NCBI GenBank assembly: GCA_012837705.1 | Contig: DUQQ01000095.1 | Span: forward strand, 1 to 44,599 | Source of the DNA: Hydrogenispora sp. | Lineage (GTDB): Bacteria > Bacillota > UBA4882 > UBA10575 | DNA: 44,599 bases | Reading direction: 5' to 3' | Made by a program: the position numbers and the translations under genes | Notes under the pieces: generated by a model | What the model saw: only the letters and a program-made list of their open reading frames with translations | Told to the model about the DNA's origin: nothing | Databases searched by the model: none | In this document: positions 8,393-44,235 of the stretch, piece after piece | Position numbering within the stretch: position 1 is the stretch's first letter | Layout: every line of letters begins with the position of its first letter

Positions 8393-8698
8393 TTATTCGC
8401 CCTTCACCCGGGAAACCGAACCCTTGGTGATCTTAACCTCGACTTTATCGGCAATGCGGATACGGATATCCTCGTCGCCAAGCTCGGTAATCTCGCCGTG
8501 AATTCCCCCGATGGTAATCACTTTATCCCCTTTTTTTAAGGCATTAAGCATCTCCGTCCGTTTTTTCTGTTGCCTACGCTGGGGGAGAATCATGAGCACC
8601 CAAAAAACACCAAGTAAAACAAACATGAAAAGCATGGAAGCTCCTCCACCCTGTGGTGCCGCGGGTGCTTGTAGCGCAAAAGTCGCGAGATAGGTCAT
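8393..8698 (-). CDS. yajC: Preprotein translocase accessory subunit YajC
   Basis: A 101-aa single-pass inner membrane protein that associates with SecDF in the Sec export complex. A hydrophobic segment at about 21-40 is followed by QRRQQKKRTEML and the KKGDKVITIGGIHGEI beta domain typical of YajC. The N-terminal stretch is rich in Ala/Pro/Gly. ATG start with AGGAGG 8 nt upstream. It lies after tgt, the classic queA-tgt-yajC order, but secD and secF are 30 kb away in this window rather than next to it. Confidence 0.95.
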   Translation of the reverse strand: MTYLATFALQAPAAPQGGGASMLFMFVLLGVFWVLMILPQRRQQKKRTEMLNALKKGDKVITIGGIHGEITELGDEDIRIRIADKVEVKITKGSVSRVKGE

Positions 8699-27311: not shown

Positions 27312-27340
27312 ATTATACAACCTTTAGTTGTGATTGTCAA
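27312..27340 (-). promoter_or_regulatory. Perfect consensus promoter of tRNA-Leu
   Basis: Minus strand TTGACA (27335-27340), 17 bp, TATAAT (27312-27317), 16 bp before the mature tRNA 5' end. It may also drive fumAB by readthrough. Confidence 0.95.
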
Positions 27341-38323: not shown

Positions 38324-39265
38324 TTAATTCCCTTTTGCCATCGCCAGGCCATCGGTCCGCCCCTTGTTCTCTTCGGCAGTTTTCCAGATCGCCCAGAGTG
38401 GGGTGGCCAAAAAGGCGCTGGAATAAGTGCCGACCGTCAAGCCGATGAGGAGGGCAAGCATGAAATCGCGAATGGCCGGACTCCCGAACAAATAAAGGAC
38501 TAAAACCGCTAATACCGTTGAGACCGCCGTATTCAAGCACCGCCGTAGGCTTTGTAAAAGGGACAGATTGACGATCTCGGCATAGGTTTCCGACCGTTTT
38601 TTATACCGCATGTTCTCCCGGACCCGGTCGAAAATGACAATCGTGTTATTGATGGAGTAACCAATAATCGTCAGCGCCGCCGCAACAAAGTTCATATTGA
38701 TCTCTTTACCAAGGAGGGCAAAAACCCCGATAATGAACAACACATCATGAAGCAACGCCACTAAACTGGCAACACCTGATTTAAACTCAAACCGGATCGC
38801 GATATAGATGAGCATCAACACCCAAGCAATCACCACCGCGTACATGGCGTTGAGCAACATCTCTTTTCCGATAATCGGTTCCACCTGGTTGATCTGTAAC
38901 GTGGAATCGGTTTCCAGGAGGCCAAAAGCCGTACTAAGCGCGTTGAGGACTAGTTCCTCTTCTTCCTGGTTAATAAAACGGGTTTGAATCAAAACACCGT
39001 GTTTTTGCGTTCCGCTCTCCGCATCAAAATAGCTAAAGGGTTGCGGCGGACTGAGCTCCAAATCTAAAGCCTGGATCTCTGGCGTGTTTAGTGCCGCCAA
39101 GACCTCCGTCGAGGTAACTTTTTCGGTAAGAGGATAACGGATACTGGTTCCCCCGGTAAAGTCAATCCCAAAGTTGAGTCCCTTCACCGCCCAAACCACG
39201 ATACTCAAGATCATGGCGACAACAGCGATCGATACGAATAGATTCTTATATTTCATCAAATTCAT
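38324..39265 (-). CDS. secF: Protein translocase subunit SecF
   Basis: A 313-aa six-helix RND-type membrane protein that works with SecD in proton-driven export. LNFGIDFTGGTSI near the N-terminus and GYSINNTIVIFDRVRENM are diagnostic. ATG at 39265 with AGGGGGTG 6 nt upstream; the earlier GTG at 39274 overlaps that ribosome site. Starts 5 bp after the secD stop. Confidence 0.96.
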   Translation of the reverse strand: MNLMKYKNLFVSIAVVAMILSIVVWAVKGLNFGIDFTGGTSIRYPLTEKVTSTEVLAALNTPEIQALDLELSPPQPFSYFDAESGTQKHGVLIQTRFINQEEEELVLNALSTAFGLLETDSTLQINQVEPIIGKEMLLNAMYAVVIAWVLMLIYIAIRFEFKSGVASLVALLHDVLFIIGVFALLGKEINMNFVAAALTIIGYSINNTIVIFDRVRENMRYKKRSETYAEIVNLSLLQSLRRCLNTAVSTVLAVLVLYLFGSPAIRDFMLALLIGLTVGTYSSAFLATPLWAIWKTAEENKGRTDGLAMAKGN

Positions 39266-39270
39266 CCGTT

Positions 39271-40815
39271 TCACCCCCTAACCCCGTATTTCGCAAGAAA
39301 GCGGTCCGGTGCTTTTTCAATCCAAATCGATAGGAATGTTTTGCTGATAAACAGCGCCGTAAACATACTGGCCAAAATACTGACCGAGAGGGTAACCGCA
39401 AACCCTTTCACCGCCCCGCTCCCAAAGAGGTATAACACCAGCGCTGCGATTAAGGTTGTGACATTCGAATCCAAAATGGTGACGTAAGCCCGGTCAAAAC
39501 CGGCCTCCAGAGCAGAATGGATCCCTTTGCCCAAGCGGACTTCATCCTTAATCCGCTCAAAGATAATCACGTTTGCGTCCACCGCCATGCCAATCCCTAA
39601 GATTATACCGGCAATCCCCGGAAGGGTAAGCACCCCACGTAAAACGGCAATTGCACCCAGCACCAACATAGTATAGATGACCAACGCCAAATCAGCGACG
39701 ACACCCATACGGCCGTATGCGACAATCATAAAGAGGAAAACCAAAATAATCCCTATTAGGCCAGCAAGCAAACTCAATCGCACCGTTTCGGTCCCCAGCG
39801 TCGGTGCCACTTGAGTGGCCATCACGGAGCGGAGCGAAATGGGCAAAGCGCCGGACATCATCAAAATGGCGTAATCTTTTGCTTCTTGGAGCGTAACGCC
39901 GGCTCCCATCGAGATCTGGGCGTTACCATTGGGAATCGGTTCGGAAATGATCGGCGCCATCAACATCTCCTCGTCTAAATAGATGGCCAGAACTTTATTG
40001 ACGTTTTCGGTTGTAATCTGTTCGAAAAGTTTTGCTCCCTCCCGGCCGAAACGTAGATTAATGACGGGAGCGCCGGTTTGCTGACTATAGCCAGCCTGCG
40101 CCTCTTCCAGATCGGTTCCGTACATCACAATCTTGTCGTCTAAGCGGAAGTTTAAACGACCTGTGGATTTGAGCAAGCGTTCCGCCTCTGCTTGGGAGCG
40201 AACTCCCGGCAGTTGAACTTCAATCCGCCCTTTGGTCTGGTCAAGGCGGACCACGGTTTCCGAGAGCCCGGAGGAATTAATCCGGTTTTCGATAATCACT
40301 TTCGCTTGGTATAAAGCGTCCTTGGGGAAGTTGTCCGGGTCTTCCTGGACCGCCACCGTAAGCACCGATGGGTCCTCATGGTCAACCCCCACGTTGAGCT
40401 TTAATTTCTTCTCTTCAACCCCCGAGCGCCAGGTCAGAGTCGACTTAATCACCCCGGCGGCCATAACTTCCTGGGCTTCCGCAGCAGAAGCAAACTTCAA
40501 GGCCAATCCTTCGTAACGGTTATTATCATTAGCTTTTCCTAAAAGGCCAACGGCAGGGGCATTAATCCCCAAGCCGGCAACACCTTTCTGGACATAATTT
40601 TCAACTTCAGACAACACCCGATCTTCCACCCGGTAATCAGGGGCCAGGATTATTTCGATGCCCCCCTTTAAGTCTAAACCACGGCGGATCGGATCATTTC
40701 CCCGAAAAAACAACTGTTTTAAAGTCGGGCTAAAGATAGGAAGAATGGCATAGACCCCAACCACAACCACCAGGATCAGAATGAACCATGTCTTCCGCCG
40801 TAAGTCCCGTCGCAC
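39271..40815 (-). CDS. secD: Protein translocase subunit SecD
   Basis: A 514-aa partner of SecF: first helix at about 10-28, GLDLKGGIEI, a large extracytoplasmic P1 domain, then five helices with GIGMAVDANVIIFERIKDE. GTG at 40815 is chosen because GGAGGAG lies 7 nt upstream; the frame could extend eight codons to a TTG whose ribosome site is missing. It sits behind a consensus promoter and the 44-aa gene. Confidence 0.96.
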   Translation of the reverse strand: MRRDLRRKTWFILILVVVVGVYAILPIFSPTLKQLFFRGNDPIRRGLDLKGGIEIILAPDYRVEDRVLSEVENYVQKGVAGLGINAPAVGLLGKANDNNRYEGLALKFASAAEAQEVMAAGVIKSTLTWRSGVEEKKLKLNVGVDHEDPSVLTVAVQEDPDNFPKDALYQAKVIIENRINSSGLSETVVRLDQTKGRIEVQLPGVRSQAEAERLLKSTGRLNFRLDDKIVMYGTDLEEAQAGYSQQTGAPVINLRFGREGAKLFEQITTENVNKVLAIYLDEEMLMAPIISEPIPNGNAQISMGAGVTLQEAKDYAILMMSGALPISLRSVMATQVAPTLGTETVRLSLLAGLIGIILVFLFMIVAYGRMGVVADLALVIYTMLVLGAIAVLRGVLTLPGIAGIILGIGMAVDANVIIFERIKDEVRLGKGIHSALEAGFDRAYVTILDSNVTTLIAALVLYLFGSGAVKGFAVTLSVSILASMFTALFISKTFLSIWIEKAPDRFLAKYGVRG

Positions 40816-40869
40816 TGGAACTCCTCCTTTTCCTTCCAAAATTATTCGCCGAATCTAACAACACTTTTG

Positions 40870-41004
40870 TTAACGGGATCTGGTCCCGGCTTTCCTTTTC
40901 TCTTCATAATAAAGATCCACTTCTTTTTCGGCTTTATTGCTGAGCAGGGCAAAAAAGCCAAAAAAAAGTAAGACCAGCAAAGTTACGACCATCGATTCAC
41001 CCAC
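40870..41004 (-). CDS. 44-aa single-pass membrane protein before secD
   Basis: A tiny frame too short for ordinary ORF lists. One hydrophobic helix (about residues 6-22) is followed by a charged, basic tail ending in TRSR. The start is GTG, supported by AAGGAGGAG 7 nt upstream; an ATG four codons later has none. It lies 30 nt after the predicted start of transcription from the promoter at 41042-41071 and 54 bp before secD, so it is probably the first cistron of a secDF message. Position and signals suggest a real gene; its role (for instance a Sec-associated helper) is unknown. Confidence 0.7.
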   Translation of the reverse strand: MGESMVVTLLVLLFFGFFALLSNKAEKEVDLYYEEKRKAGTRSR

Positions 41005-41041
41005 AGAAGCTCCTCCTTCCTCTTTTGGACAACCTTAGTAC

Positions 41042-41071
41042 ATTATAAGCTTTTCTAATCCCGTTTGTCAA
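41042..41071 (-). promoter_or_regulatory. Consensus promoter of the 44-aa gene and secDF
   Basis: Minus strand TTGACA (41066-41071), 18 bp, TATAAT (41042-41047). It lies 42 bp downstream of the CDF gene's stop. Confidence 0.9.
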
Positions 41072-42387: not shown

Positions 42388-42417
42388 ATTATAATTGATC
42401 GCCTAATCCCCTGTCAA
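42388..42417 (-). promoter_or_regulatory. Promoter of tRNA-Gly
   Basis: Minus strand TTGACA (42412-42417), 18 bp, TATAAT (42388-42393), both perfect. The -35 is in a small CCCC-TTGACA-GGGG hairpin. Confidence 0.85.
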
Positions 42418-43446: not shown

Positions 43447-44235
43447 TTAAAAGAGATGATGCCCATAAAAGACGATTAAACGCGCTTCGGCAAAACTGGA
43501 AACCAAGAGAAAAAGAAGGCCGAAGATAAACACTTCTTTCGTATCACCGAAGAGCTGCGGTCCGGACCAGAATTTCCCCTCTTTTTGCCAGGAGCCATCC
43601 GTAAAGGAGCTGGTCTGTAGCCAGGTCCAGTTCACCGTTGAGGCCAAGAGTAGAGAGTAGGAAAACCAGACCCAAACCGCAAAACGGAGGAAAGTAACCA
43701 GCGCTCCAATCCGGACTAAACCCTGCGCCGGATAGGGGTAGGAATTGGTCCCCGCGACCAGTCCCGTTAAGACTGTATAAATTAAAAAGTAAAACAGGGC
43801 TAAAGTAGACCGGCCCACCTTAAAACGGTTCAGGAAGAAAACGAATAAGAGCACGATCAAGAAATGATGAGCGAAGATTTTAACCGTAACCAGCAGGATA
43901 TTTCCCCAAGTCCCAAAGGTGTCCGCCGTGTTAATCTCCCACTTGAAAATTTTGATGGTTTCGCCCAGGCGTTCGGCCCACCACGTTCCGAGCGTTTCGG
44001 AACCTTTAACGCCAAAGATCTTATCCACTAAAAACGTGTTTTTCAGGAAACCTTCACTGAGCAAGAAGTAGCCGACTGCCCACGCTACGATAAAAAGAAG
44101 TAGGCCGCAAAGGAGATAGCCGCCGACTCTGCGATAAACATCCGTATTGAATAGTAATTTGCCAAAGAAACCGGGATGCTTATCCGCTTTACTTCGATCC
44201 TTGTTTGCCAATTTCAAACTAATCCTCCTTCTCAT
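43447..44235 (-). CDS. Multi-pass membrane protein of unknown function
   Basis: A 262-aa protein with a basic start, then about five or six hydrophobic segments (about 36-58, 110-135, 142-163, 175-200 and 235-255). KIFAHHFLIVLLF and SSFAEARLIVFYGHH contain conserved-looking His and Glu in membrane segments. Its layout loosely recalls SpoIIM/DUF95 proteins, but I cannot confirm that. ATG at 44235 has GAGGG 8 nt upstream; a TTG at 44217 (six codons in) has a better AAGGAGG 6 nt before it, so the start is open. It has a strong promoter and a 150-nt leader with a hairpin. Confidence 0.75.
   Translation of the reverse strand: MRRRISLKLANKDRSKADKHPGFFGKLLFNTDVYRRVGGYLLCGLLLFIVAWAVGYFLLSEGFLKNTFLVDKIFGVKGSETLGTWWAERLGETIKIFKWEINTADTFGTWGNILLVTVKIFAHHFLIVLLFVFFLNRFKVGRSTLALFYFLIYTVLTGLVAGTNSYPYPAQGLVRIGALVTFLRFAVWVWFSYSLLLASTVNWTWLQTSSFTDGSWQKEGKFWSGPQLFGDTKEVFIFGLLFLLVSSFAEARLIVFYGHHLF

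Follow-up and report, generated by a model that had tools for sequence, protein, structure and literature searches.

Directly in front of secD in a genome of Hydrogenispora sp. (Bacillota; assembly GCA_012837705.1, contig DUQQ01000095.1) lies an open reading frame (ORF) of only 44 codons, which an initial annotation had proposed to encode a membrane protein with a link to Sec. SecDF is a core export machine and YajC is its known small partner, for which we know of no clear job. The locus raises the question of whether such a small ORF is a gene and, if so, whether its product belongs with SecDF. Below, the window is the whole stretch of DNA that was analyzed (44,599 nucleotides), and the family and the class are those of the window's genome, represented by 16 and 29 genomes, respectively.

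Organization of the locus

From the promoter to secF, the following features were found in the window:

41042..41071, minus strand: sigma-A-type promoter TTGACA-N18-TATAAT, a perfect match (12/12, promoter scan)
41011..41018, minus strand: ribosome-binding site of the micro-protein, AAGGAGGA, ending 6 nt 5' of the GTG (read from the sequence)
40870..41004, minus strand: micro-protein ORF, 44 aa, first cistron; GTG start at 41004-41002, TAA stop at 40872-40870
40821..40827, minus strand: ribosome-binding site of secD, GGAGGAG (read from the sequence)
39271..40815, minus strand: secD (TIGR01129, 367 bits, over the cut-off), probable start GTG 40815
38324..39274, minus strand: secF (TIGR00966, 284 bits, over the cut-off)

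The ORF encodes MGESMVVTLLVLLFFGFFALLSNKAEKEVDLYYEEKRKAGTRSR, and a gap of 54 nt separates its stop codon from the start of secD, with secD and secF downstream on the same strand. This order of promoter, 44-aa ORF, secD and secF gives good support to the earlier description of the ORF as the first cistron of secDF. The good ribosome site ascribed to the ORF was also found, 6 nt before the GTG, and purine-rich sites of the GGAGG/GGGGG type were present 5' of all 15 copies of the micro-protein in the family. The longest secD ORF given by the ORF lister starts at TTG 40839, upstream of GTG 40815; since GGAGGAG sits inside this TTG-started ORF, GTG 40815 is the likelier start.

A consensus promoter had been placed 38 bp upstream. 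The promoter itself proved to be a 12/12 match, whereas its distance should be corrected to 37 nt before the GTG. All 15 family genomes that were read contained a 12/12 promoter at this place, 33-59 nt from the start codon, with a spacer of 18 in all but one (17). In the whole 2.4 Mb genome we found 38 perfect sites with a spacer of 17 or 18 and none for the backward control pattern; thus, the micro-protein promoter belongs to a small group of perfect sites. Two other perfect TTGACA/TATAAT promoters of the window (27312-27340 and 42388-42417, minus strand) lie directly 5' of tRNA-Leu and tRNA-Gly. Downstream of the -10 box and before the ribosome site of the micro-protein there is a string near AAGGTTGTCC (41027-41036), and most members of the window's genus, as well as several other family genera, retain a similar one.

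Genes for two tRNAs and for a CDF cation-efflux protein are located 5' of the promoter, and an Rfam scan of the window reported two tRNAs and no match at the micro-protein ORF. Further upstream, a membrane-type ORF of 262 aa (43447-44235) had no Pfam match up to E 1.

Conservation and distribution of the micro-protein

Short ORFs are frequent around secDF, where 64 of at least 30 aa overlap 6 kb of sequence, so ORF size alone means nothing, and a chance ORF in the leader region was the first explanation to be considered. A tblastn search with the 44 aa, as had been suggested, detected the micro-protein in 15 of the 16 family genomes, counting the window's own genome, which has one copy. The genome without a match (G005) also lacked a secD match of normal strength. 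The seven same-genus copies contained no indel and no internal stop, while the gap to secD varied from 49 to 64 nt, and the frame is hence conserved in the sense asked for by the initial annotation. Among these copies, the variable columns at codon positions 1, 2 and 3 numbered 17, 11 and 33 (43 columns each), and the pooled pN/pS was 0.28. When the substitutions were placed randomly on the ORF, amino-acid changes were 1.6 to 2.5 times as numerous as observed (12.5-22.5 expected, 6-14 seen; six comparisons); the observed value was reached in no more than 4 of 5000 shuffles in each comparison, and a stop codon was introduced in 37-73% of shuffles.

A similar pattern was observed outside the family. 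In all class genomes except G017, a small ORF upstream of secD encodes a protein of 41-62 aa in which AE(K/R), or a sequence much like it, comes after a single hydrophobic span. These ORFs were first picked by eye and then checked with a profile for which only the 15 window-family sequences were used. This profile was run on all 1253 stop-to-stop segments from 13 secD loci belonging to other class families. Ranks 1-12 all went to the secD-upstream protein, one per locus, in 12 of the 13 loci (the exception being G017), although the weakest of these matches (E 0.069, 9.4 bits) scored only slightly better than the best-ranked unrelated segment (E 0.097, 8.9 bits). None was found with this profile among 2710 segments of 40 secD loci from other classes (best E 2), two of which (L238 and L247) hold less than 1 kb.

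With an alignment of 29 members (A1), 28 of the 29 class genomes gave a match, the best per genome at E 6.2e-15 or lower, the miss being G005; members of A1 match it by construction. In a set of 398 phylum genomes, drawn evenly, all 16 class members matched A1, and the other 382 genomes yielded four weak matches (E 1.6e-4 to 7.2e-3) that we took as chance hydrophobic matches. By these searches the micro-protein is absent outside the class, so that SecDF in general can do without it.

Conservation places the micro-protein ORF above chance: it is present in 15/16 family and 28/29 class genomes, has a pN/pS of 0.28 and is preceded by the promoter in 15/15 cases. Together with the absence of indels and internal stops and the recovery of the secD-upstream protein across families, these data refute the idea of a chance ORF, whose probability is now negligible. 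Judged from sequence comparison, the ORF is a genuine conserved gene under purifying selection, in agreement with the previous proposal of a real membrane micro-protein.

Predicted topology and family searches

Within the protein, three elements could be distinguished:

40942..40992, minus strand: predicted transmembrane helix, residues 5-21 (hydropathy, mean Kyte-Doolittle 2.89)
40924..40932, minus strand: residues 25-27 (AEK); A25 invariant and E26 conserved in at least 90% of the 29 members of A1
40873..40941, minus strand: short basic tail, residues 22-44, with 7 K/R and 5 D/E, predicted cytoplasmic

The clear membrane helix noticed earlier was confirmed over these 17 residues. It is preceded by four residues without K/R and followed by a 23-residue tail with seven K/R. 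A basic tail and a pre-helix segment free of K/R were shared by 24 of the 27 secD-linked copies, the exceptions having three K/R (G018) or one (G019 and G026) before the helix. According to the positive-inside rule, the basic side of a helix is cytoplasmic, and the micro-protein would thus adopt an N-out/C-in topology. AlphaFold2 predicted a single helix at residues 2-43 (mean pLDDT 86.9), which adds little.

No relative was found in the PDB by sequence and no fold match by Foldseek. Searches of Pfam and NCBIfam with the micro-protein and the 29-member alignment gave nothing but isolated weak matches to short hydrophobic families with no relation to it. We took these as noise, the best being DUF4006 (0.00052, 3 of 29 members). 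As far as profile and sequence searches can tell, the micro-protein is absent from every curated family library searched here, which indicates how a conserved gene of an export operon may escape such libraries at a size of 44 codons. A literature search by title revealed no small protein before secD besides arrest peptides.

Gene order and a companion protein

Stable linkage to secD across the lineage, as expected for an accessory of SecDF, was found in 27 of the 28 secD-bearing class genomes, in which the micro-protein lies shortly before secD in the same orientation. In eight genomes (G018-G022 and G025-G027), yajC shares the contig and lies no more than 1.5 kb 5' of the micro-protein. In the window, an intact yajC is located at 8396-8698, about 30 kb away, and the micro-protein still adjoins secD; it appears that the micro-protein tracks secD rather than yajC.

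On the other hand, six genomes (G012, G020, G021, G024, G025 and G027) contain a second copy outside the secD locus (loci L103, L099, L101, L102, L100 and L098), all of them retaining the secD-linked one. The second copy in L103 adjoins ORFs that are presumably flgB/flgC-like (flagellar), and that in L101 adjoins ORFs that we take to be lgt- and glmS-like. In G017, the sole copy is away from secD, beside an ORF that is presumably CvpA-like and another membrane-protein ORF. Because of the copies elsewhere in six genomes and the G017 copy found only elsewhere, a function wider than Sec is possible. The Sec link claimed by the initial annotation stands as far as gene order upstream of secD is concerned, and is weakened by these copies. 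Operons can also join unrelated genes.

Seven genomes (G019, G021 and G024-G028) have a further ORF of 134-156 aa, here called Y, between the micro-protein and secD. Y begins with a hydrophobic segment, and its second span ends in F-x3-Y-x3-R. The following loci of Y (120-156 aa; some starts picked by eye) were recorded:

L051: 1049-1498
L052: 2991-3455
L053: 3046-3462
L058: 1012-1479
L099: 4467-4874
L101: 4642-5001
L102: 5273-5659
L103: 5180-5569

All 11 full-length copies of Y that were found adjoin a micro-protein copy, whether in the interval separating it from secD or elsewhere; this count is partly circular given that the Y profile was built from the same 11 copies. A full Y stands next to the second micro-protein copy in four of the six genomes (G012, G020, G024 and G027) and a shortened one in G025, whereas no Y accompanies the second copy of G021. 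The order of the two genes varies (micro-Y or Y-micro), which suggests that they act jointly in genomes that have both. The window's own genome yielded no Y; among the 16 family genomes it is clear only in G012, and G010 has two matches at E 0.08-0.3. No consistent Pfam match was obtained for Y, and only hydrophobic columns were aligned when its profile was compared with that of the micro-protein.

Possible roles of the micro-protein

Arrest peptides that sense export or insertion and control translation are found in front of secDF, such as VemP, ApdA and ApdP, and the micro-protein might be a regulatory leader of this kind acting on secD. Such peptides come from small ORFs located 5' of secA, secDF or yidC and have a signal or membrane segment at the N-terminus; our ORF, which is short, carries an N-terminal membrane segment and lies directly upstream of secD, has this appearance. 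In addition, the last codons hardly vary among the seven same-genus copies, and a 5-bp hairpin, CGGGA-N5-TCCCG, is possible at the ORF end in all seven (40874-40888). Covariation cannot test this pairing since the GGG and TCC CGT codons never vary. However, the invariance of G40, S43 and R44 is limited to the genus; across the 29 members the C-termini differ in sequence and length, and the class-wide conserved A25 and E26 adjoin the helix instead of the C-terminus. The last two residues of the family copies are SR, AR, KR or RS, and a RAPP-like motif is absent. One published screen requires a spacer of more than 30 residues and a conserved C-terminus (PMC10987492), and an earlier screen was restricted to proteins of 80-200 aa (PMC7897499). 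The post-helix tail falls short of that spacer in the family (23 aa in 14 of 15 copies, 26 in the other), but reaches at least 30 aa in 7 of the 12 more distant copies, for which only the absent C-terminal motif argues against arrest. In addition, folding of the secD ribosome site, computed for 14 of the 15 family copies (G012 left out), revealed neither consistent pairing (mean unpaired probability 0.36-0.90, above 0.5 in 9 of 14) nor a clear excess of folding (z -2.1 to 0.9), and the extra copies have no downstream secD. An arrest peptide is hence unlikely.

A decayed or shortened YajC, or a protein replacing SecE or SecG, would be alike in size class and operon position. This explanation appeared very improbable, well below that of an arrest peptide, considering the separate intact YajC in the same window and the presence of SecG in 29/29 and SecE in 24/29 class genomes, both being found in the window's genome. 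Comparison with class YajC by hhalign gave a probability of 19% over only 18 hydrophobic columns (helix only), the micro-protein had no Pfam match up to E 1, and PF02699 was absent among the weak matches of the 29 members.

The likeliest role, to which we give roughly an even chance, is that of a lineage-specific, single-helix N-out/C-in accessory of SecDF, a Sec link that we infer from gene order alone. It is favored by purifying selection, linkage to secD in 27/28 genomes, the 12/13 loci detected by the family profile, occurrence in 28/29 class genomes, separation from yajC, promoters in 15/15 family genomes and the topology shared by 24/27 copies. The G017 copy off secD, the six second copies (five by Y), the absence outside the class and the lack of a structural match among the searches made for the micro-protein speak against it. 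The main competing explanation is a general membrane role, in which Y may or may not take part: a class-specific micro-protein family with an envelope function unrelated to Sec, accompanied by Y in some relatives and placed before secD by inherited operon structure. Such a function would account for the six genomes with second copies off secD (five of them beside Y), the insertion of Y before secD in seven genomes, the partly circular adjacency of all 11 full-length Y copies and the sole copy of G017 away from secD. Nevertheless, Y is missing from the window's genome and clear in only G012 of the family, where the micro-protein is still at secD, and adjacency to secD outlasts the separation from yajC. 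A general envelope function is therefore a serious alternative, yet appreciably less probable than an accessory of SecDF.

The gene encodes a single-span membrane micro-protein, whose synthesis is probably coordinated with that of SecD and SecF through a single strong promoter. Its helix would insert with the short acidic N-terminus outside and the basic tail in the cytoplasm, the conserved AE(K/R) lying at the inner membrane face. As a putative small accessory subunit it could pack on the SecDF membrane domain, and may stabilize SecDF or adjust its coupling to the translocon in this class. A broader and rather doubtful proposal would regard the micro-protein as a new class-specific family of SecDF subunits, in which the AE(K/R) helix docks on SecDF and, in relatives, pairs with Y, a two-span protein whose second span bears an invariant F-x3-Y-x3-R. 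The two would make up a small membrane module, duplicated as a unit and able to serve other membrane machines.

Finding a micro-protein beside a known machine is familiar in kind. Nevertheless, an uncatalogued micro-protein that occurs throughout a class and stays with secD even where yajC is distant represents a sharp candidate for a missing partner of SecDF.

Comparison with known systems

Among known systems, the arrest peptides (SecM, MifM, VemP, ApdA, ApdP and the uDF_ groups) share with the micro-protein a short ORF with an N-terminal membrane segment directly 5' of a Sec gene. They differ in that the micro-protein tail in the window's family is too short by the spacer rule of the published screen, a class-wide C-terminal motif is absent, the secD ribosome site is not consistently hidden, and copies of the micro-protein exist without secD. 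SecE (PF00584) and SecG (PF03840) are likewise small membrane subunits, in their case of the translocon, whereas both have their own genes in the window's genome and the micro-protein matches neither profile. YajC (PF02699) is also small, single-span and encoded near secDF, with a comparable size class and an N-out/C-in topology. In contrast with YajC, the micro-protein has no sequence relation to it beyond hydrophobicity and possesses neither the conserved PQ..QQ stretch nor the soluble domain of roughly 60 residues that characterize this known partner of SecDF.
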